A DNA stretch of 64,000 bases from Nitrospira sp. (GCA_024330925.1 JANDJK010000001.1:26645-90644), one strand, 5' to 3'. Shown: positions 6,550 to 20,231, numbered from the stretch's first letter. Program-made: numbers and translations. The notes: generated by a model not told the origin, from the sequence alone.

Positions 6550-7704
6550 GTGGCTAGCCTGTCAACGGTATCGGTTTCGCTGGGCGAGCGCAGCTATGAG
6601 ATCGTGATACAACCGGGCCTCCTTAATCGGCTCGCCACCCGAGTGCGTGAGCTAGGAGTCAAAGGAAAGGCGGCGGTCGTCACCGATCGCCATGTTGCCA
6701 GATATTATCTGGCTCCCGTGTTACGGGCACTCAGCTCATGTGCAGTGAAGGCGGTTCCTATCGTCCTCCCGCCAGGGGAACAATTCAAAACACTCACCAC
6801 TGTTAAAAAGATCCTGGATGTCCTAGCAAGGTGCCGTTTGGAACGATCCTCGTTTGTGTTTGCGCTGGGCGGAGGGGTGATCGGCGATCTTGCCGGATTC
6901 ACGGCGGCGGTTTATCAGCGAGGTATTCCGTTTGTCCAGATTCCGACGACCCTGATCGCTCAATCTGATTCCAGCGTGGGCGGGAAGACCGGGGTTGACC
7001 ATCGGCTGGGGAAGAACTTGATCGGTGCCTTCTATCAGCCGAAAGCTGTGTGGATTGATCCTTTGACGCTCCGCACGCTGCCGAAGCGGCAATGGGTGGC
7101 CGGACTTGCAGAGGTGATCAAGTACGGTGTTATTGCTGATGAGCGATTGCTGTCTTATGTGGAACGACATGTGTCTGGTTTGTTGAAACGACAACCGTTG
7201 GCGATGGCGGTCGTGATCAAGCGATCCTGTGAGATCAAGGCTGAGATTGTGATGGCGGATGAGCGGGAATCTGACCGGCGGCGAGTTTTGAACTTTGGCC
7301 ATACGATCGGCCATGCCCTGGAAACGTTGGGGGGATATCGGTCTCTGATCCATGGGGAAGCTGTCGGCATTGGAATGGTGGAGGAGGCCGATTTAGCTTG
7401 TTTTTTGGGGATCTGTGAGCGGAGTCTTGTGGAAAGGATCCGGAGAGTCGTCCGAGCGGTTGGCCTGCCCGATCGCATGCCCCGCTGGTCCTCGGCCAAG
7501 GTGTGGAACGCTATGTTGCACGACAAAAAGGTGTCCGGGGGACAGGTCGTTGGTGTTTGGCCGGTCTCCATTGGACAGGTGCGGATTCTGCCTATCGATG
7601 AGCCGACGTTTCATCGATGGTACCGGGACGCTCATCGGCATGGGATTGCTGGTCGCAAGGAAGCAAGAGAAGGACGGTTCGCGGTGGCGCGTCGCTTTGT
7701 CTGA
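6550..7704 (+). CDS. aroB: 3-dehydroquinate synthase
   Basis: AroB converts DAHP to 3-dehydroquinate, step two of the shikimate pathway, using NAD and a divalent metal. The NAD-binding segment FALGGGVIGDLAGFTAAVYQRG, the IPTTLIAQSDSSVGGKTGV motif and the metal ligand region NFGHTIGHALE are intact. The track ORF begins at 6394, but its first 52 codons are unlike the family. I place the start at GTG 6550 (MASLSTVSVSLGER after initiation), giving 384 residues against about 360 usual. The excess is a basic C-terminal tail. Its stop overlaps the nadE start by one base. aroC lies at 61 kb and is not linked. Confidence 0.93.
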   Translation: MASLSTVSVSLGERSYEIVIQPGLLNRLATRVRELGVKGKAAVVTDRHVARYYLAPVLRALSSCAVKAVPIVLPPGEQFKTLTTVKKILDVLARCRLERSSFVFALGGGVIGDLAGFTAAVYQRGIPFVQIPTTLIAQSDSSVGGKTGVDHRLGKNLIGAFYQPKAVWIDPLTLRTLPKRQWVAGLAEVIKYGVIADERLLSYVERHVSGLLKRQPLAMAVVIKRSCEIKAEIVMADERESDRRRVLNFGHTIGHALETLGGYRSLIHGEAVGIGMVEEADLACFLGICERSLVERIRRVVRAVGLPDRMPRWSSAKVWNAMLHDKKVSGGQVVGVWPVSIGQVRILPIDEPTFHRWYRDAHRHGIAGRKEAREGRFAVARRFV

Positions 7705-9479
7705 TGGGCACTATTCGAATTGCGTTAGCGCAGGTCAATGTTGTGGTTGGAGATCTGGAGGGAAATGCCAGGGTCCTTTGCTCTATGATCGACCGGGCTC
7801 GTGAGGCACAGGCCGACGTGGTGGTCTTTCCAGAACTGGCTGTGACGGGGGCTCCTCCTGAAGACCTCCTGCGCAAGCGGTGGTTCCTCGATGAGACCTG
7901 CAAAGCGATGGTCGAGGTGGCACGGTCCTGCGTCGGTCTGGTGGCAGTGGTTGGCTATGTGGAACAAGGACTGTCAGGCAGGCGAATGACACGGTCCTCG
8001 TCAGTTCTGGACCGATTGGAGTTGTACAACGCGGCTGCGATCGCCGCGAATGGCCAGTGTCTGGCCTCATATCGAAAACAGGTGCTCAACACTGAAAATG
8101 GGCGCGAGGAAGAGCGGTATTTCCTCGCAGGGCGAAGTGGGCTGGTGATCGAGCTCCAAGGCCTAACAATTGGTGTATCGATTGGTGATGAACTGTGGTG
8201 TCCGCCAGGGCCTGTCCCGGCCCTCCTCGAAGCTCATGCAGACATGATTGTCAATATCAGCGCCATCCCTTTTGTAAGAGGCGGACGTCTGCAGCGCGAA
8301 CAGGCACTCGTGAATAGTGCCTTACGATACAACGCCATGGTGGCTCATGTGAATTTAGTGGGAGGGCAGGATGGGCTGGTCTTCGACGGCGGCAGCCTGG
8401 TGGTTGATCGAAATGGCGAGATCGTGGCGCGCGCCAAGGCCTTTGAGGACGACTTACTGATAGCGGACCTTCATTTCGAGCGGCGGGTAGATGAGAATGT
8501 GTGCCAAAGCCCATCAAAAAACAGGCATGAGCACCAACACGAAGGGCAATGGCAGCAAATCACCATCTCGATGCCACGGCGTGTGGCCCCCCTTCCCCCA
8601 ATCGTTCCTCGTGTAGAACCAAGGGGTGACGATCTTGAGGAAACGTACCAGGCGTTGGTGCGGGGGGTGAAAGATTATGCTGCGAAGAACGGCTTTGTCA
8701 ATGTCGTGCTTGGGTTGAGTGGCGGGATCGATTCGGCCTTGACCGCTGCTGTGGCTGTGGATGCATTGGGGGCGGAGCATGTGGTGGGCCTCTGTATGCC
8801 TTCACCATACACATCAGTGGAAAGTGCAGAAAACGCTGTGGAGCTAGCGCGTCGATTGGCCATGAAGTGTCTGACGATTCCCATCACACCGTTGTTTGAA
8901 GCCTTTCGCCATTCGCTGGCGCAAGCGTTTCAGGAAGCGCCGGTGGGTCAAACCGAAGAGAATTTGCAGGCCAGGATCCGGGGGATGATTCTGATGGCCT
9001 TCTCTAACCAGTTCGGACATCTCGTCTTAACGACGGGCAATAAGAGCGAGATGAGTGTGGGGTATGCCACGTTGTATGGTGATACGGCTGGGGGGTTTGC
9101 GGTCCTCAAGGATGTTCCGAAAACCATGGTGTATGAGTTGGCTCGTCTCCGTAACAGGCAGGGCCCTGTGCCTGTGATTCCCCAGCGCATTCTGGATCGA
9201 CCGCCGACTGCTGAGTTGCGGCCCAACCAGAAAGACGAAGACAGTCTGCCACCCTATTCGATCCTTGATTCCATTTTAAAAGCTTATGTGGAAGAAGATC
9301 GGTCGATAGAAGAAATCGCCGCCCAGGGGTTTGACTATGAGATGGTTACGCATGTCGCCGGCCTGGTTGATCGAAGCGAATATAAGCGGCGGCAGGCTCC
9401 TGCTGGCGTAACAATCACTCGCCGCGGATTCGGCCAAGAATGGCGAATGCCTATCACCAACGGGCATCGTCATGGCTGA
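7704..9479 (+). CDS. nadE: NAD synthetase with degenerate glutaminase domain
   Basis: This 591-residue protein has the two-domain layout of glutamine-dependent NAD+ synthetase: an N-terminal nitrilase-like amidase domain (1-260) and a C-terminal ATP pyrophosphatase synthetase domain (about 310-575, with SGGIDSAL near 339). It makes NAD from deamido-NAD. In the amidase triad Glu44 and Lys125 are present. The catalytic cysteine, normally in an ICED-W motif, is Gly161 here (IGVSIGDELW), and the usual KQxLPNY is KQVLNTE. The nearest cysteine is Cys166. I infer that it cannot hydrolyse glutamine and uses free ammonia. It overlaps aroB by one base and precedes glnB. Confidence 0.9.
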   Translation: MGTIRIALAQVNVVVGDLEGNARVLCSMIDRAREAQADVVVFPELAVTGAPPEDLLRKRWFLDETCKAMVEVARSCVGLVAVVGYVEQGLSGRRMTRSSSVLDRLELYNAAAIAANGQCLASYRKQVLNTENGREEERYFLAGRSGLVIELQGLTIGVSIGDELWCPPGPVPALLEAHADMIVNISAIPFVRGGRLQREQALVNSALRYNAMVAHVNLVGGQDGLVFDGGSLVVDRNGEIVARAKAFEDDLLIADLHFERRVDENVCQSPSKNRHEHQHEGQWQQITISMPRRVAPLPPIVPRVEPRGDDLEETYQALVRGVKDYAAKNGFVNVVLGLSGGIDSALTAAVAVDALGAEHVVGLCMPSPYTSVESAENAVELARRLAMKCLTIPITPLFEAFRHSLAQAFQEAPVGQTEENLQARIRGMILMAFSNQFGHLVLTTGNKSEMSVGYATLYGDTAGGFAVLKDVPKTMVYELARLRNRQGPVPVIPQRILDRPPTAELRPNQKDEDSLPPYSILDSILKAYVEEDRSIEEIAAQGFDYEMVTHVAGLVDRSEYKRRQAPAGVTITRRGFGQEWRMPITNGHRHG

Positions 9480-10193
<714 letters not shown>

Positions 10194-10236
10194 GCGATGA
10201 ATCCCTCTCGTTCGTCCTCTCAGTGGGCGGGATCAT

Positions 10237-10270
10237 CACCCATGCAATGTTGTTTCGTGATGGGTGTTTT
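10237..10270 (+). terminator. Possible terminator or attenuator between glnB and glnA
   Basis: CACCCAT (10237-10243) pairs with ATGGGTG (10260-10266) across a 16-base loop, followed by TTTT. The long loop makes it a weak terminator; it may only reduce read-through from glnB into glnA. Confidence 0.35.
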
Positions 10271-10428
10271 GCCATGATGTCGCAATAGTCTTCTGCTGGC
10301 GTTTCTTGCCATGGACGAACGCCTTGCTGTGAAGATGGGGGGATCTCGCCGGTATGATGCTCAGGAACTGGGAAGGCGCAGGTATGGGATGAACCTTGTG
10401 AGTGGTCTGTGAGCAGGAGGAAAAGGGA

Positions 10429-11838
10429 ATGAACGTGCGCGAGGTATTGGAGTTTGCCAGGAAACACAAGGTTCAGATCGTTGATCTGAAGTTTGTGGAT
10501 TTGCCCGGTGTCTGGCAACACATGAGCATTCCGGTCAGCGAATTAACGGAACAGTTGTTCAAAGACGGTTCAGGCCTAGATGGTTCGTCAATTCGCGGCT
10601 GGAAAGCCATCAATAACAGTGATTTGTTGCTGATTCCCGATCCGACCACTGCCTGCCTCGATCCCTTTATGGCGGTGCCGACGCTCAGTTTGACAGGTAA
10701 TGTGGTCGATCCGGTGTCTCGGCAAAATTATGACCGGGATCCACGGTACGTTGCGCAAAAAGCAGAGAAGTACCTCCAGAGCACCAAGATTGCTGATACG
10801 TCATACTGGGGACCAGAAGCAGAGTTTTTTATCTTCGATCACGTGCGATATGACCAGACAAGCCACTCTGGCTATTACTATCTCGATTCCGAAGAAGGGG
10901 TCTGGAATACAGGGAAGGAGGGATTTAACTTAGGGGGGAAAGTTCGGCATAAACAGGGTTATTTCCCCGTGTCGCCAGTAGATACCCAACAGGATATCCG
11001 AAGCGAAATGGTCCTTGAAATGGAAAAGGTTGGGATCGCTGTGGAAAAGCACCATCACGAGACGGCAACCGCCGGACAGGCGGAAATTGACATCCGATTT
11101 GATACTCTCGTGAAAACTGCCGACAAGATGATGATGTATAAGTACATTGTTAAGAACGTCGCGCGCCGGCATGGTAAAACGGTCACCTTCATGCCTAAGC
11201 CTCTCTTCGGCGATGCGGGGTCTGGGATGCACACTCACCAGAGTCTTTGGAAAGATGGGAAGCCGTTGTTCGCGGGAAAGGAATATGCGGGCATCTCGGA
11301 AGTGTGCCTTTACTACATTGGGGGGATCCTGAAGCATGCACCAGCGTTGGCAGCCTTTACGAACCCGACAACAAACTCCTACAAACGGATTACACCGGGT
11401 TACGAAGCGCCTGTGTTACTGGCCTATTCCAGCAGGAATCGCTCTGCGGGCATTCGTATTCCAATGTATTCGCCTAGCCCAAAAGCCAAACGTATTGAGG
11501 TCCGATTCCCCGATCCCTCGTGCAACCCCTATTTAGCGTTTTCAGCTATGTTGATGGCGGGGTTGGATGGTATTCAGAACAAGATTCATCCAGGGGAACC
11601 AGCAGAAAAAGACCTGTATGATCTGGATCCCAGAGAGGCGGCCGGCATTCCCACGATGCCGGGAAGCCTGGACGAGGCAATCGCCTGTCTCGAAAAGGAC
11701 CATCAGTTTTTGCTGAAAGGTGAAGTGTTTACCGAGGACTTGATAGAGGCGTGGATCAAGTACAAACGGGAGAAAGAAATCGATCCCGTCAGGTTACGAC
11801 CGCACCCGTACGAATTTTTCCTTTATTACGATGTGTAG
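10429..11838 (+). CDS. glnA: Glutamine synthetase type I (adenylylatable)
   Basis: GlnA makes glutamine from glutamate, ammonia and ATP as a dodecamer in the cytoplasm. At 469 residues it has the type I length, with the active-site segments [11 protein letters not shown], the metal-binding [10 protein letters not shown], the ATP-binding [16 protein letters not shown] and NRSAGIRIP. Tyr397, in EKDLYDLDP, lies exactly where E. coli GS is adenylylated, which fits the GlnE-like genes nearby. I use ATG 10429, which has AGGAGG eight bases upstream, rather than the track start at 10402. Confidence 0.97.
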
Positions 11839-12512: not shown

Positions 12513-13286
12513 ATGGCAAAACGGGTACGAACAGGATTGACCAGAAGAGACATTTTGGAACGATACCTTGAACGATTCAAGCGACAAATCGATAAGTTTC
12601 AGCCATTTCTTTCACGCAAGCGTGTAGCTTTGTCGATTGACGAATTCGATGAAGAGACCGAAGAGTTGATCGCGCAGGTGTTTGGAGCTGCCTCGGATCA
12701 AGTTGAGGCCTATCTTTATGCGAAGAGCGGCGAGGCTGCGCTCCTGCCGGAAGAAGCCCAAGAAACTGGTGTTCATGACATCGAGAGAGAGAGCCTTCAG
12801 CAACGGCGGCAAGTTTTGGAAAGTTGCCTGGCCGACTTGGAAATGCGATACCGCCTCCTGGCGAGACGACATGAGAATCAAAAGTCGGTCTACGCAGATC
12901 GTACCGTGGTCCAATACTATGCCTCGTATGACACGCGAAGCATTTCGTGTACGGCAACGATCCGAGAAGTGGGCAAAATGTTCCAAAAGTACCGGATTGA
13001 CGCCCTTTTGGTAGATGATGGTTCACGCTACATTGGAATCATTACTGATTCGGATTTGAGCCGGAAAGTTATTGCGAAGGGGCTTGATCCAGCCACCACC
13101 ACGGTGGCTTCCTGCATGAGCCGATCCATTGTGACCATTGAAGAAGACGAGCCACTTGCTGATGCGCTGGCCCTTATGAAAAAACACATGATCCGCCACC
13201 TTCCCGTCACAGCCGATGGAACCATCATTGGCGTCTTGTCGGCGTCGGACCTGATTCGTGCCCTAGAAGATCGGTTGGCTGTCTGA
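12513..13286 (+). CDS. CBS-domain protein with N-terminal coiled region
   Basis: This 257-residue soluble protein has two CBS motifs: residues about 140-195 (CTATIREVGKMFQKYRIDALLVDD...GIITDSDLSRKV) and about 200-255 (MSRSIVTIEEDEPLADALALM...RHLPVTADGTIIGVLSASDL). CBS pairs bind adenosine nucleotides and usually regulate a partner. The first 135 residues are charged, helical and not matched to a family I know. It stands alone with its own promoter and no partner gene is obvious. Confidence 0.75.
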   Translation: MAKRVRTGLTRRDILERYLERFKRQIDKFQPFLSRKRVALSIDEFDEETEELIAQVFGAASDQVEAYLYAKSGEAALLPEEAQETGVHDIERESLQQRRQVLESCLADLEMRYRLLARRHENQKSVYADRTVVQYYASYDTRSISCTATIREVGKMFQKYRIDALLVDDGSRYIGIITDSDLSRKVIAKGLDPATTTVASCMSRSIVTIEEDEPLADALALMKKHMIRHLPVTADGTIIGVLSASDLIRALEDRLAV

Positions 13287-15174: not shown

Positions 15175-15558
15175 CTAGAAGTCGTCGAGAGCTATTGGAC
15201 GAAGCAGATCTCGAACGGACAGTACCCCGACGATGGTGTCCCCTTTCCGCACCACCAGGTGCTGGATATTGTAACGGTACATGAGGTCAGCAGCTTCCGT
15301 AATGGGCCGTCGTTCATCGATATCGACCAGAGGCGTGCTCATGATCACGCCGATCGGAAATAGAGATGGCTCCTGACCCCTTCCCAATACTTTCCGCACG
15401 ATGTCCGACGTGGTCACAATGCCAACAAAATGATGGTCGTGTTCTACGAGAATGCTTCCCACCCGATGGGCTGACATGGATCTGGCAGCCTCAACAGTTG
15501 TCATCGTTCCTGGCCCTGTCACCACCTTGTGATTCACCAGTTGTCCAACTGTGACCAT
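15175..15558 (-). CDS. Two-CBS-domain protein
   Basis: The product is 127 residues and is almost entirely a Bateman pair: CBS1 about 3-60 (VTVGQLVNHKVVTGPG...HFVGIVTTSDIVRKV) and CBS2 about 70-125 (VIMSTPLVDIDERRPITEAADLMYRYNIQHLVV...GVLSVRDLL). Such stand-alone modules bind adenosine nucleotides and regulate partners. ATG 15558 has GAGGGGG upstream; the track start at 15729 adds 57 residues that do not look like protein. It is the second CBS protein within 3 kb, and the two are not close copies. Confidence 0.8.
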   Translation of the reverse strand: MVTVGQLVNHKVVTGPGTMTTVEAARSMSAHRVGSILVEHDHHFVGIVTTSDIVRKVLGRGQEPSLFPIGVIMSTPLVDIDERRPITEAADLMYRYNIQHLVVRKGDTIVGVLSVRDLLRPIALDDF

Positions 15559-16146
15559 CGAATTCCCCCTCTTATCCAAACAAACGCGAACAAACGTTGA
15601 TATCAAGAAATTTGTTTGTTCTTCTTTTCGAAGCAAACAGTATCGTCCGCGCGTTGCAGAACCATATTCACTGGGTAAAGCTTCTGTTAATCCTGCGTGT
15701 GTGGGGGACTCTTGTATGGAGAGAGACAAAAGATGCGGACGGATCGGTCAGTCTGCGCAACAATGTTCAGCTTGGCGCGGAAAGTCCAGGGATCGGGGAC
15801 TGATCTCCCGTCAAAAATCGTCCTCATGGAGGAAGCCCTGATCCCCACTTATAAGCGATCACAATGTCGGGGTCACACCGGGTATGTTTTCTGAAACGAA
15901 GACAATAAAAGCGATGATTTCACAGGACGGTCAGATAGCCATACGGGGCTTGAGATAGGTTCAAACCCATAGAGACTCCCTACCAAGAGCAAGGGCACTG
16001 CTCCTCTAGGAAAGCCGGCAGAATACAAGGGCGTTGCGTTCTCAGCTGGTTCTGCGGTGATCAGTTGGGAATCTCTGGAGGTGTCAGGTTGAAAGATTGT
16101 TTGAGCTGGCCTGCCTAGGCTGACCTCGTTGCCCCTCGTCTCTCGT
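15559..16146. other. Intergenic region, no gene seen
   Basis: About 590 bp between two minus-strand genes. The short ORFs in the track are low-complexity or overlap each other. The part next to the CBS gene is AT-rich with repeated GTTTGTT on the minus strand. A GGTTCAAACCC sequence at about 15.96 kb looks like a tRNA T-arm, but no cloverleaf surrounds it. Confidence 0.4.
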
Positions 16147-18420
16147 TTATAACTTCCCGAACATCTCGTCAAAGAATTCCCGCGTCCGGCTCATATGGTG
16201 CTTGATGTCAGTATGAAGGTGGCGGGCTCCGGCCTGCCAGTCGTCGGTCATGTAGCCGATGCGACGGGCAAGAAAGACGAATTCATCGGAGTCAGGCGGC
16301 GGAAGCACGAGGTCTCTTGTGTTGCCCCGGACCATGCGGAGGCCATCGATCAACAGGCGAAGAAAAAGATATGCCTTTCGGAGTTCCTCTCCGGTCTGAC
16401 GCGGGAGAAAGCCGCCGTCGACCAATGCGGCCAACGCCTGCAAGGTATTGGGGGTGCGTAGGCGGGGGTCCTTGTGTCCGTGCATAAGCTGCAAGTACTG
16501 GACAGCGTATTCGATCGTTACGATACCGCCATGGCTATGCTTTAAGTGTATCTGTCCCGGTTTGACCAGTTGGGCAATTTGCTGACGGCGCAGCTCCAGT
16601 GCGGCGGTCAGGTCCCAGGGAGCGCCGCTATAGACGTACCGGTCCCGGTGGGTCTCTACTTGCTGGCCTAGGGTAGCGTCGCCAGCCACAAAACGGAGCT
16701 TGATTAAGGCTTGTCGCTCAAAGGGTGCAGCCAATCCGCCAGGACTGTAATAGGAGCAGATTTCATCATATGTGTTGGCAAGCGACCCCTTTTCGCCGTG
16801 GGGCCGAAGACGCACGTCAAGGTGGAAGATGCCTTCGCGTTTGGCCTCGATCCGTTGCAGCAGTTCCTGCGCCAGCCGCTCAAAGTATTCGCTGTTGTCA
16901 AGGGACTGGTTCCCGCGCGTGCGGCCGAGACCTCCATAAACAAACAATACTTCGATGTCCGAGGCATAACCCATTTCGCGCCCGCCAAATTTGCCAGCTC
17001 CAAAAATGGCGAAGGGACACGGAGTCTTATCATCGAGTTGGGGCAACCCATAGAGGCGGTTCAGTTTGGCTTGGCAATCAAACAGCGCACGTTCAACAAT
17101 CACCTCGGCCAATTGACTAATGGCCAATGAGAAGTCGGGCAGGCTGGTTGACGGATCGACAATGTGTTTCATATCGATCCGGAACAGTTCGCGGTCTTTA
17201 AATTGATTTAAGGCAGCCTTCTTAGCCTTGTCCGTCTTTGCTTTGTTCACAGCCGCATTGAGTTCTTTCCGCAATGCCGCGAGTGGCTTGATGAGTGGTT
17301 CATCCCGGTAGTTTTGTAAAAGCGGAAGCAAGTTGTCGTATTGCCGACGAAGAAAATCTTCCCACAGAAAGTCGCTTGCGCCGAGCACACGCGCTAATAG
17401 AGGCAGGCTTTTTTTGTCGCTCACGAATGACAAGGCCTGGCGGGCCCCCTTACCTTGATTTTTGACGATGAGGTCCAGAAATTGGTCAAATGAATCCAGC
17501 GCCTTGGCCGGATTGGGTGCCCAGGTGAGGGCATGGGTAAACTGCTTGATCAAGGTGGCGGTGACGCGAAGTTGCTCCTGCTCGGCGTGGTCCAATAACT
17601 TGTGGCCGTACCGATTGCGGACAAAAAACCGGTCGTGGATTTTGTGCCCCACGTTTTCGACCTGGGCCTTGCTGACATAAATGTTACGCATAGCTAGGGC
17701 GTTGGCAAACGCGTATAGAAAGGCTGGCGTGTCGTCAGATTGAATGTCCATGACTGTATCGGTGGATGATCGGCTGTTGTCAAAGGTGATATGAATGGTG
17801 TGCAGGAGGCCACGGAACGAGCTGCGCCGTTTGCTGAGCCATTCAACCAGTTGACGGTTGACCGCTTGGCGTGTCTCCGCGAATTGGCCGGCGTCGAGCC
17901 GTCTAAGCAGATTGGTGAGTGCAGTAACGAAGCGGTGGCGCTCGTTTGATCCAAATGACACGCCAGGCTCTCGTTGCACGAGGAACACATCGACGATCTT
18001 TTTTCTCGTCAGGCCCGGTCTGGCTTTCTGATGTAGTCGGCCTTCGGCGTCGAATCGACTCCGAGGCGTCGGTGCAACTGGCCGTTCTGCGAATGTATAG
18101 ATCATCCCCTCTTTGATGTTGAGCCCAAAGGCGGACAGCAGGCCGCAGATGACAGCAAATTCGGAGAAGTAATCATAGGCAACGATCGTGACCACAATCT
18201 GGGCGCCATCTCGGTCTTCAATCGTAACTTCGCAAGGATGATCTGGAGTGAGCTGAGCGATCATGCCAATGTGACGGGCGATGGTGGACGGCTCGAAACG
18301 AAAAAAGTAGTCGGGATCCATTCGATCTAGAAAATCCTGCAGGATATCCGAAGGGATGTCTCGACAGAAAGGAAGCAGCATGGCTGAGATCTGTTGGGGG
18401 TCCGAGATGAATGGTGCCAT
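16147..18420 (-). CDS. ACT-ACT-GlnE nucleotidyltransferase-like protein
   Basis: This 757-residue protein has two ACT-like segments (about 75-150 and 206-275) ahead of one GlnE-type unit: nucleotidyltransferase motif GAGKFGGREMGYASDIEVLFVY (474-495), LDVRLRPHGEKGS (534-546) and a GlnD_UR_UTase-like helical end. Normal GlnE is about 950 residues, has two such units and no ACT domains; ACT pairs belong to GlnD. The metal-binding D-x-D is D488-I-E490, a conservative but unusual change. It most likely represents one of the two GlnE activities on glutamine synthetase, with ligand sensing added. It starts 47 bp from the divergent partner gene. Confidence 0.8.
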   Translation of the reverse strand: MAPFISDPQQISAMLLPFCRDIPSDILQDFLDRMDPDYFFRFEPSTIARHIGMIAQLTPDHPCEVTIEDRDGAQIVVTIVAYDYFSEFAVICGLLSAFGLNIKEGMIYTFAERPVAPTPRSRFDAEGRLHQKARPGLTRKKIVDVFLVQREPGVSFGSNERHRFVTALTNLLRRLDAGQFAETRQAVNRQLVEWLSKRRSSFRGLLHTIHITFDNSRSSTDTVMDIQSDDTPAFLYAFANALAMRNIYVSKAQVENVGHKIHDRFFVRNRYGHKLLDHAEQEQLRVTATLIKQFTHALTWAPNPAKALDSFDQFLDLIVKNQGKGARQALSFVSDKKSLPLLARVLGASDFLWEDFLRRQYDNLLPLLQNYRDEPLIKPLAALRKELNAAVNKAKTDKAKKAALNQFKDRELFRIDMKHIVDPSTSLPDFSLAISQLAEVIVERALFDCQAKLNRLYGLPQLDDKTPCPFAIFGAGKFGGREMGYASDIEVLFVYGGLGRTRGNQSLDNSEYFERLAQELLQRIEAKREGIFHLDVRLRPHGEKGSLANTYDEICSYYSPGGLAAPFERQALIKLRFVAGDATLGQQVETHRDRYVYSGAPWDLTAALELRRQQIAQLVKPGQIHLKHSHGGIVTIEYAVQYLQLMHGHKDPRLRTPNTLQALAALVDGGFLPRQTGEELRKAYLFLRLLIDGLRMVRGNTRDLVLPPPDSDEFVFLARRIGYMTDDWQAGARHLHTDIKHHMSRTREFFDEMFGKL

Positions 18421-18428
18421 ACTTGCCA

Positions 18429-18434
18429 GTATAC
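18429..18434 (-). promoter_or_regulatory. -10 box for the minus-strand glnE-like gene
   Basis: On the minus strand TATACT ends seven bases before the ATG at 18420. Transcription would start at or next to that ATG. No Shine-Dalgarno exists between them and no good -35 is seen. Confidence 0.45.
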
Positions 18435-18452
18435 CGGAATGGACTGGAACAG

Positions 18453-18458
18453 TATAAT
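18453..18458 (+). promoter_or_regulatory. -10 box for the plus-strand glnE-like gene
   Basis: A perfect TATAAT lies nine bases before ATG 18468 with no Shine-Dalgarno, so the mRNA would be leaderless or nearly so. A -35 match is weak. With the opposed TATACT at 18429-18434 it forms a compact divergent control region. Confidence 0.45.
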
Positions 18459-18467
18459 GTCCCTATC

Positions 18468-20231
18468 ATGCCCTCATTTTCTCCGAACAAACCCGTCGCT
18501 GTTCGAGCGGACAAGCCTGATCCTCGTTCCATTTTGCTAGCGCCTGCTCGAAGTCTTGATCGGGTACGAGCCATTCTCTCTGCCTATCGTCTGCATGATG
18601 TCGAGCGGGCCGATCGGAATTTGCAATCCATGGCGGGAGAACCGTACCACCGGCGACGGTTAGCGGAACTGTTGCCGAGCTTGTTGACGTATATCGCCAA
18701 AACGGCAGATCCCGATCAGGCGCTGAACCATTGGGAACGACTGTTCAGCAGTATGGGGAAGGGAGTTCTGCTTGAGTATCTGTTAGGGGCTCCGCGTGTG
18801 CTTGAGTTGCTCTGCACGATCTTTGGAAATAGTGATGCACTCGCCGTTACAATCCTACGTGACCCCACACTTGTCTATTGGCTGGGGGAACCAGATGTGT
18901 TAGCCAGGCCGGTTAGCCGGGCCGAAATGGAACGGTCGCTGGATGAGCAGTTGGCCAGATTGACGGTGACCGATCTCAAACTCGATGTGTTGCGTCGCTA
19001 CCGGCGACGAGAATTGTTACGCATTGGAACACGCGATCTGTTGCGATGGGCTGATGTGCTGGAGACGACCGCTGCCCTGTCCGATTTGGCGAGCGTGTTG
19101 ATCCAGGCAGCCTATGAAATCGTTGATGCGGACCTGCGGCGACAGTACGGTGTTCCTATGCATCGGAATCGAATGGGGCGGTGGGTCGAGACAGGCTTTG
19201 CTGTGATTGGCGTGGGCAAGCTTGGTGGTCACGAACTCAACTACAGTTCGGATGTCGATTTGATCTATGTCTATGCTTCGCACAAGGGAGCAACGCGGGC
19301 GCCTCGCCGCGTGTCCGGGATGTCGCCTAGTGCTGTTGGCATTTCCAATGAGGAATATTTTGAGATCCTGTCCCGCGAACTCACGAGGGTGCTGACAGAG
19401 AAGACCAAGGAGGGATCTGTGTTTCGTGTGGACCTTCGGTTGCGGGCTGAGGGAGCGGTGGGGCAATTGGCGCGATCGCTGGAAGACTATGCGGCCTATT
19501 ATCGAACGCGCGGCGCGGTGTGGGAACGGTTGGCTCTGCTTAAGGCGTGGCCGATTGCTGGATCAGTGGATGTGGGGCGGGCATTTTTGCGAATGGTCAA
19601 GCCCTTCATTCTTGGTGGGACCAAGGTGAAACCTGATTGGCAGGAGGCATTGGCCATTATAGCCGAGGTGCGGGGTGTGAAGGACATGATTGATGCCAAG
19701 ATTGCTGATCGCGGCCAGGGGCAACGCAATGTGAAGCTCGGTATTGGGGGGATCCGCGAGATCGAGTTTTTTATACAGACAATCCAGGTGATTGCGGGCA
19801 AATGGCTTCCTGGTCTGTTGGATCGGAACACGCTTCGCTCATTGGACCGCTGCGCCCACTATCGGTTGATTTCACAGCGGCAGCGAGACGACTTAGTCGC
19901 CGCTTATTTGTTTCTTCGGGATGTTGAGCACAAACTGCAGTTGGTGGATGACTTGCAGACTCATACCCTTCCTGAAGAGGAAGAGGCATTGAAGCGGTGC
20001 GCGATTCGAATGGGATACGATGCGGAGGATCCATCCCGGGGCGTCAAACAATTTCACGCCGACCATCAGCACCACCGCACAGTCGTTCGTCGGCTCTTCG
20101 CCGACTTATTCCGAGAGCCACAGACTTCGCCCCTCTTGAAGGCCGTATTACGAATTGCCGAGGCGAAACAGTTAAGAGAAGAGGAAAAAAGGAAGGGAAA
20201 AAAGAAGGCAAAGCTTCCCACGCACAATTGA
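18468..20231 (+). CDS. GlnE-like glutamine synthetase adenylyltransferase half
   Basis: The 587-residue product matches one nucleotidyltransferase-plus-helical unit of GlnE. It has GVGKLGGHELNYSSDVDLIYVY (about 248-270, intact D-x-D), DLRLRAEGAVGQLARSLEDYAAYY, and IGGIREIEFFIQTIQ, which resembles the N-terminal (deadenylylating) half of E. coli GlnE. The partner on the opposite strand resembles the other half. The C-terminus is a Lys-rich tail (EEEKRKGKKKAKLP). I start at ATG 18468 because the track's extra 19 codons overlap the divergent gene. Both halves probably act on GlnA Tyr397. Confidence 0.82.
   Translation: MPSFSPNKPVAVRADKPDPRSILLAPARSLDRVRAILSAYRLHDVERADRNLQSMAGEPYHRRRLAELLPSLLTYIAKTADPDQALNHWERLFSSMGKGVLLEYLLGAPRVLELLCTIFGNSDALAVTILRDPTLVYWLGEPDVLARPVSRAEMERSLDEQLARLTVTDLKLDVLRRYRRRELLRIGTRDLLRWADVLETTAALSDLASVLIQAAYEIVDADLRRQYGVPMHRNRMGRWVETGFAVIGVGKLGGHELNYSSDVDLIYVYASHKGATRAPRRVSGMSPSAVGISNEEYFEILSRELTRVLTEKTKEGSVFRVDLRLRAEGAVGQLARSLEDYAAYYRTRGAVWERLALLKAWPIAGSVDVGRAFLRMVKPFILGGTKVKPDWQEALAIIAEVRGVKDMIDAKIADRGQGQRNVKLGIGGIREIEFFIQTIQVIAGKWLPGLLDRNTLRSLDRCAHYRLISQRQRDDLVAAYLFLRDVEHKLQLVDDLQTHTLPEEEEALKRCAIRMGYDAEDPSRGVKQFHADHQHHRTVVRRLFADLFREPQTSPLLKAVLRIAEAKQLREEEKRKGKKKAKLPTHN

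Follow-up and report, generated by a model that had tools for sequence, protein, structure and literature searches.

Split GlnE with a GlnD-type ACT-ACT module on the AT-C-lineage half in Nitrospira and its class

In a 64,000-nucleotide stretch of the genome of Nitrospira sp. (GCA_024330925.1 JANDJK010000001.1:26645-90644; hereafter the window, with positions counted from its first letter), GlnE, the adenylyltransferase of glutamine synthetase (GS), is encoded by two adjacent genes, and one of the two products carries the linker and the two ACT domains of a GlnD C-terminus. Adenylylation of GS is a textbook cascade of covalent regulation, in which GlnD acts as a glutamine sensor one tier above GlnE. 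We consider it probable (about 0.6) that the two proteins constitute a split GS adenylyl-transfer system, in which an ACT module of GlnD origin gates the adenylylating half in response to a ligand that is most likely glutamine. An earlier note, made from the sequence of the window, had described the division of GlnE into proteins of 587 and 757 residues with two GlnD-type ACT domains on the longer one, and had proposed a rewired sensing circuit. The arrangement itself is confirmed by the present analysis, and its interpretation is partly supported.

Rather than a single GlnE polypeptide of about 950-1060 amino acids (aa), the genome encodes two proteins of 757 aa (ACT-GlnE, minus strand) and 587 aa (GlnE-N, plus strand), each with a PF03710 nucleotidyltransferase domain (Table 1). 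The plus-strand open reading frame is open from position 18411 and would yield 606 aa if translated from its earliest potential start; the length of 587 aa is counted from the ATG at 18468. GlnE-N also matches PF08335 (E 7.9e-30), and no ACT domain was detected in it by the domain scan. The N-terminal region of ACT-GlnE matches GlnD C-termini in the NCBIfam scan (NF003467, E 1.1e-25), with residues 21-285 aligned to GlnD 614-842 by TIGR01693 (E 2.3e-21). The full-length cut-off of the GlnD models is missed by far, only the linker-ACT-ACT part being matched. Across the genome assembly (149 contigs, 2.44 Mb, 90.6% complete) there are only two PF03710 matches, both belonging to this pair, and no third.

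The lineage of each half was assigned by a maximum-likelihood tree of 54 units, with the full-length GlnEs of E. coli and of five other members of the phylum as references. All 21 plus-type units group with the N-terminal units of full-length GlnE (99/98), and all 21 ACT-side units group with the C-terminal units (99/98); hence the stand-alone protein is assigned to the deadenylylating lineage (AT-N) and the ACT-bearing protein, which the earlier note had not assigned to a particular half, to the adenylylating lineage (AT-C), so that the genome encodes one unit of each. The system thus shares with E. coli GlnE (PF03710, COG1391) two nucleotidyltransferase units, both lineages and the catalytic acidic residues (D488, E490 and D535 in ACT-GlnE, the last invariant in the ACT-side alignment), and the GlnE part of the ACT-GlnE model matches both halves of the E. 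coli enzyme by fold (1v4a and 3k7d). Unlike in E. coli, the two halves are adjacent genes in convergent or divergent orientation, and the AT-C half bears an N-terminal GlnD-type ACT-ACT module and a DxE motif in place of DxD.

The check for ACT folds proposed in the earlier note was carried out with AlphaFold (AF2), which predicts two of them in ACT-GlnE at a predicted local distance difference test score (pLDDT) of mostly 80-97. ACT1 comprises strands 63-69 and 74-82, helix 87-97 and strands 100-109 and 141-150, followed by helix 158-176, with a low-confidence insertion at about residues 112-138; ACT2 comprises strands 210-214 and 222-228, helix 234-244 and strands 248-257 and 260-268, followed by helix 278-300. 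An ACT-like family, PF24931, matches ACT2 slightly under its curated cut-off (E 2.4e-5), and the same model is matched by 23 of the 27 members of the family alignment. In a comparison by hhalign, a profile built from 19 N-terminal regions of ACT-GlnE aligned with the GlnD profile (residues 641-885) over 234 columns, from the linker preceding the ACT domains across both of them (probability 99.7, E 1.2e-25). ACT-GlnE shares this colinear linker and ACT pair with GlnD, the PII uridylyltransferase/uridylyl-removing enzyme; it differs in having neither the nucleotidyltransferase domain of GlnD nor its HD hydrolase domain, and in carrying the module on the N-terminal side of a GlnE unit. The PDB fold neighbours of the N-terminal part include other metabolic enzymes with ACT folds, namely large glutamate dehydrogenase, ranked first, the regulatory domain of threonine dehydratase, and SerB2. 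This ranking would point to large glutamate dehydrogenase as the source of the module, but that derivation was rejected, since the sequence profiles favour GlnD.

The search of the Nitrospirota that the earlier note had called for was made over 296 genomes of the phylum, tallied by hand from the result table, with the N-terminal ACT-GlnE profile as query. The fusion is encoded in 102 of the 114 genomes of the class of Nitrospira (E <1e-57) and was found in none of the 182 genomes of the other classes. The scores are bimodal, with no further matches until about 1e-14, where proteins of GlnD length appear. In all 35 loci examined in the class, the AT-N gene adjoins ACT-GlnE, either divergently or convergently, and the arrangement recurs in the one-contig genomes G147, G204, G110 and G055; the five GlnEs read outside the class are full-length (1040-1062 aa). 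Judged from these genomes, the split with the ACT fusion is a class-wide arrangement and not a local oddity. Among the best 80 of 221 confirmed matches in GTDB species genomes, those with names are Nitrospira, Nitrospiraceae, Nitrospirae or Nitrospirota, apart from one labelled Nitrosospira; the arrangement may also occur in other phyla. Both GlnE genes have been lost in a number of class members (G161, G245, G265, G285, G289 and others); they keep glnA, with the Tyr397 motif where it is readable, and mostly GlnD. In G197 and G216 only partial PF03710 matches were found.

No GlnD was found in the genome studied here, where the best matches to GlnD models are ACT-GlnE itself and a RelA/SpoT-type protein. 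The latter, assigned by reading of its sequence and not by a family scan, accounts for the second TIGR01693 match, which was therefore rejected as a GlnD remnant. Gene order was compared in eight genomes with GlnD and eight without. Relatives with GlnD have the order glnB-glnD-glnA, glnB and glnD overlapping by 4 bases in several of them, and in the present genome and seven other GlnD-less ones, including the single-contig G147 and G204, glnB is followed by glnA and glnD is missing. An assembly gap was rejected as the cause of the missing gene here, because glnB and glnA are adjacent at the glnD site and the one-contig genomes agree. By hand count, GlnD is absent from 30 of the 40 sampled genomes of the genus, and ACT-GlnE is kept in all 30. 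On a tree of the concatenated GlnE pair, in which some forks are weak and which is built from the two GlnE genes themselves, the GlnD states require at least three changes: one for the present genome with G218, one for a larger clade, and one for a single GlnD-bearing metagenome-assembled genome, G070. G070 (GlnE pair in L061) is the sole genome nested in the GlnD-less clade with a GlnD match (7.6e-151), which may be contamination. The glnB-glnA gap is about 235 bases here and, for most members of the larger clade, about 30-60, a difference that fits separate deletions of glnD. Taken together, an ancestral glnB-glnD-glnA operon apparently lost glnD twice within the genus.

ACT-GlnE is under continued purifying selection after the loss of GlnD, as judged from the ratio of non-synonymous to synonymous substitution rates (dN/dS) in pairs of GlnD-less genomes: the ratio is 0.03-0.06 for ACT2, similar to that of the catalytic part, and looser for ACT1 (0.14-0.33). 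As the genome contains two matches to the AmoA family (G000:C120:523-1230 and G000:C130:3-563, one of them partial), complete ammonia oxidation (comammox) is most likely the life-style of this Nitrospira. GlnD is also lacking in the bins RSF12 and UW-LDO-01, which we take to be comammox, and is present in N. moscoviensis. Loss of GlnD as a simple comammox trait was rejected as not clean, since some GlnD-less genomes were seen without amoA and the amoA-bearing G167 keeps GlnD.

Table 1. Features of the GlnE pair and of the glnB-glnA locus, in positions of the window
Feature	Position	Strand	Evidence
ACT-GlnE, 757 aa: GlnD-type linker-ACT1-ACT2 module and AT-C-lineage GlnE unit	16147..18420	-	
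Linker, ACT1 and ACT2, colinear with the GlnD C-terminus, residues 20-286	17563..18363	-	TIGR01693, hhalign
ACT1, about residues 60-152	17965..18243	-	predicted strands/helix
ACT2, about residues 206-275	17596..17805	-	PF24931 ACT-like
GlnE nucleotidyltransferase domain, AT-C lineage, residues 342-589	16654..17397	-	PF03710 E 5.5e-41; tree 99/98
Catalytic D488-I-E490 of ACT-GlnE (DxE in place of DxD)	16951..16959	-	
C-terminal helical domain of ACT-GlnE, residues 623-754	16159..16554	-	PF08335 E 4.1e-15
GlnE-N, stand-alone AT-N-lineage unit, 587 aa, DxD intact	18468..20231	+	PF03710 E 1.1e-57; tree 99/98; SDVD motif
nadE, upstream of glnB	7617..9479	+	conserved order nadE-glnB-(glnD)-glnA
glnB (PII, Tyr51 in T-loop)	9855..10193	+	PF00543 E 3.9e-32
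glnB-glnA gap; relatives carry glnD (2.7 kb) there, empty here	10194..10428	+	gene order, sequence
glnA, type I GS, Tyr397 motif, presumed target	10429..11838	+	TIGR00653 E 2.8e-204

In the neighbourhood of these genes, nadE stays near glnB in relatives; the linkage of nadE with PII is known, and control of NadE by PII has been shown in other bacteria (PMC7196632). The interval that separates glnA from the GlnE pair encodes two CBS-domain proteins (12513-13286 and 15175-15729), the first of which stays near glnA or the GlnE pair in many relatives.

In the mechanism that we propose, the ACT-bearing protein would add adenosine monophosphate (AMP) to GS and the stand-alone AT-N protein would remove it, the transplanted GlnD C-terminus gating the former on an amino-acid-like ligand, most likely glutamine. 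The ACT pair of GlnD is regarded as the bacterial glutamine sensor, and adenylylation in enterobacteria depends on glutamine (PMC3173338; PMC6316151); by its predicted fold and its homology to this sensor, the pair in ACT-GlnE may bind a ligand directly. The glutamine signal would then reach the adenylylating half without passing along the GlnD-PII-GlnE route of E. coli, and GS control would gain an input of its own, for glutamine or a related compound, so that GlnD could become dispensable and its loss might be compensated. For the GlnD-less Nitrospira (the present genome, G147, G204 and others), a further step is conceivable, and we put it forward tentatively: control of GS may have only one tier, with ACT-GlnE sensing glutamine or a re-specified ligand and with no uridylylation of PII. 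An earlier transfer of a sensor copy to the effector would account for this collapse of the cascade. The rewired circuit of the earlier note stands with respect to the split, the fusion and the absence of GlnD, but not with respect to PII Tyr51 and GlnA Tyr397 (motif LYDL), which had been offered in its support. Both residues are present as described; however, Tyr51 sits in an almost identical T-loop in genomes with and without GlnD, and the Tyr397 motif is found in every readable GlnA, including those of relatives without the GlnE pair. Since both persist in the absence of GlnD or GlnE, they were rejected as evidence for the circuitry.

Several observations weigh against the proposed gating of GS adenylylation, and part of them would also fit a change of target. 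The presence of GlnA Tyr397 does not follow that of the GlnE pair. The ACT-side units descend from a long stem (1.37 substitutions per site; AT-N, 0.37), which leaves room for a change in the substrate of ACT-GlnE. Glu occupies the second acidic position of the metal site (SD-I/V-E) in 36 of 36 ACT-side proteins, with DxD kept in all 12 units of six full-length GlnEs and in the 32 plus units for which the motif was retrieved. The AT-C half might thus modify another protein, such as PII, whose Tyr51 is kept without GlnD, or another enzyme of nitrogen metabolism, with GS served by AT-N alone or not at all. We regard such retargeting as unlikely: the two genes adjoin in every locus examined, the fold still matches both halves of E. 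coli GlnE, and an AT-N unit would have no modification to undo if its adenylylating partner were missing. The DxE motif need not mean inactivity, as kanamycin nucleotidyltransferase, an active enzyme and a weak fold neighbour of the GlnE part (1kny), likewise uses it.

Other contrary points concern the ACT module itself. The ligand loop of ACT1 (D83-Y84-F-S-E-F88 here; near-invariant family motif D-Y-F-(S/A)-x-F) is two residues shorter than that of GlnD, and the canonical Gly between beta1 and alpha1 is replaced in ACT1, by Ser or other residues, and in nearly all copies of ACT2, mostly by Ala (loop D230-T-P-A-F-L-Y), the GlnD counterparts being P712-G713 and G826; the ligand of ACT-GlnE could accordingly differ from that of GlnD. 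Such loops would also suit a structural or docking module for PII, which is present in all genomes checked, for the AT-N partner or for GS, with control by PII as elsewhere in bacteria. This explanation seems slightly less probable again than retargeting, given that D83, Y84, F88, P232, F234 and L235 are invariant across 27 diverse members and that purifying selection on ACT2 is very strong, though docking could also account for the latter. Furthermore, most class members carry both GlnD and ACT-GlnE, so the origin of the fusion does not lie in a replacement of GlnD. An origin of the pair as paralogues of a conventional GlnE, or through an artefact of assembly or annotation, is highly improbable despite the fragmented and incomplete assembly, and was rejected: the genome holds no full two-unit glnE, so the objection raised in the earlier note fails, and the same arrangement is found in one-contig genomes and across the class.

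In a limited search of open-access full text, no description of the ACT-GlnE fusion or of a split GlnE in Nitrospira was found. GlnD is among the genes drawn in Nitrospira nitrogen-assimilation regions by Koch et al. 2018, in a part of that paper in which GlnE is not mentioned (PMC6311188). The adjacent N. moscoviensis genes NITMOv2_1289/1290, which have been named 'GlnEB' (PMC6131200), may correspond to the split pair. New here is the loss of glnD from glnB-glnD-glnA in three quarters of the sampled Nitrospira genomes, with ACT-GlnE retained under purifying selection. Throughout a class, the lower enzyme of a cascade bears on its adenylylating half the sensor module of the upper one, and this upper enzyme was later lost, apparently twice. 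The lineages that lost GlnD include complete ammonia oxidisers, which draw both energy and nitrogen from ammonium, and the matched relatives with and without GlnD would offer a test bed for direct sensing by an adenylyltransferase.

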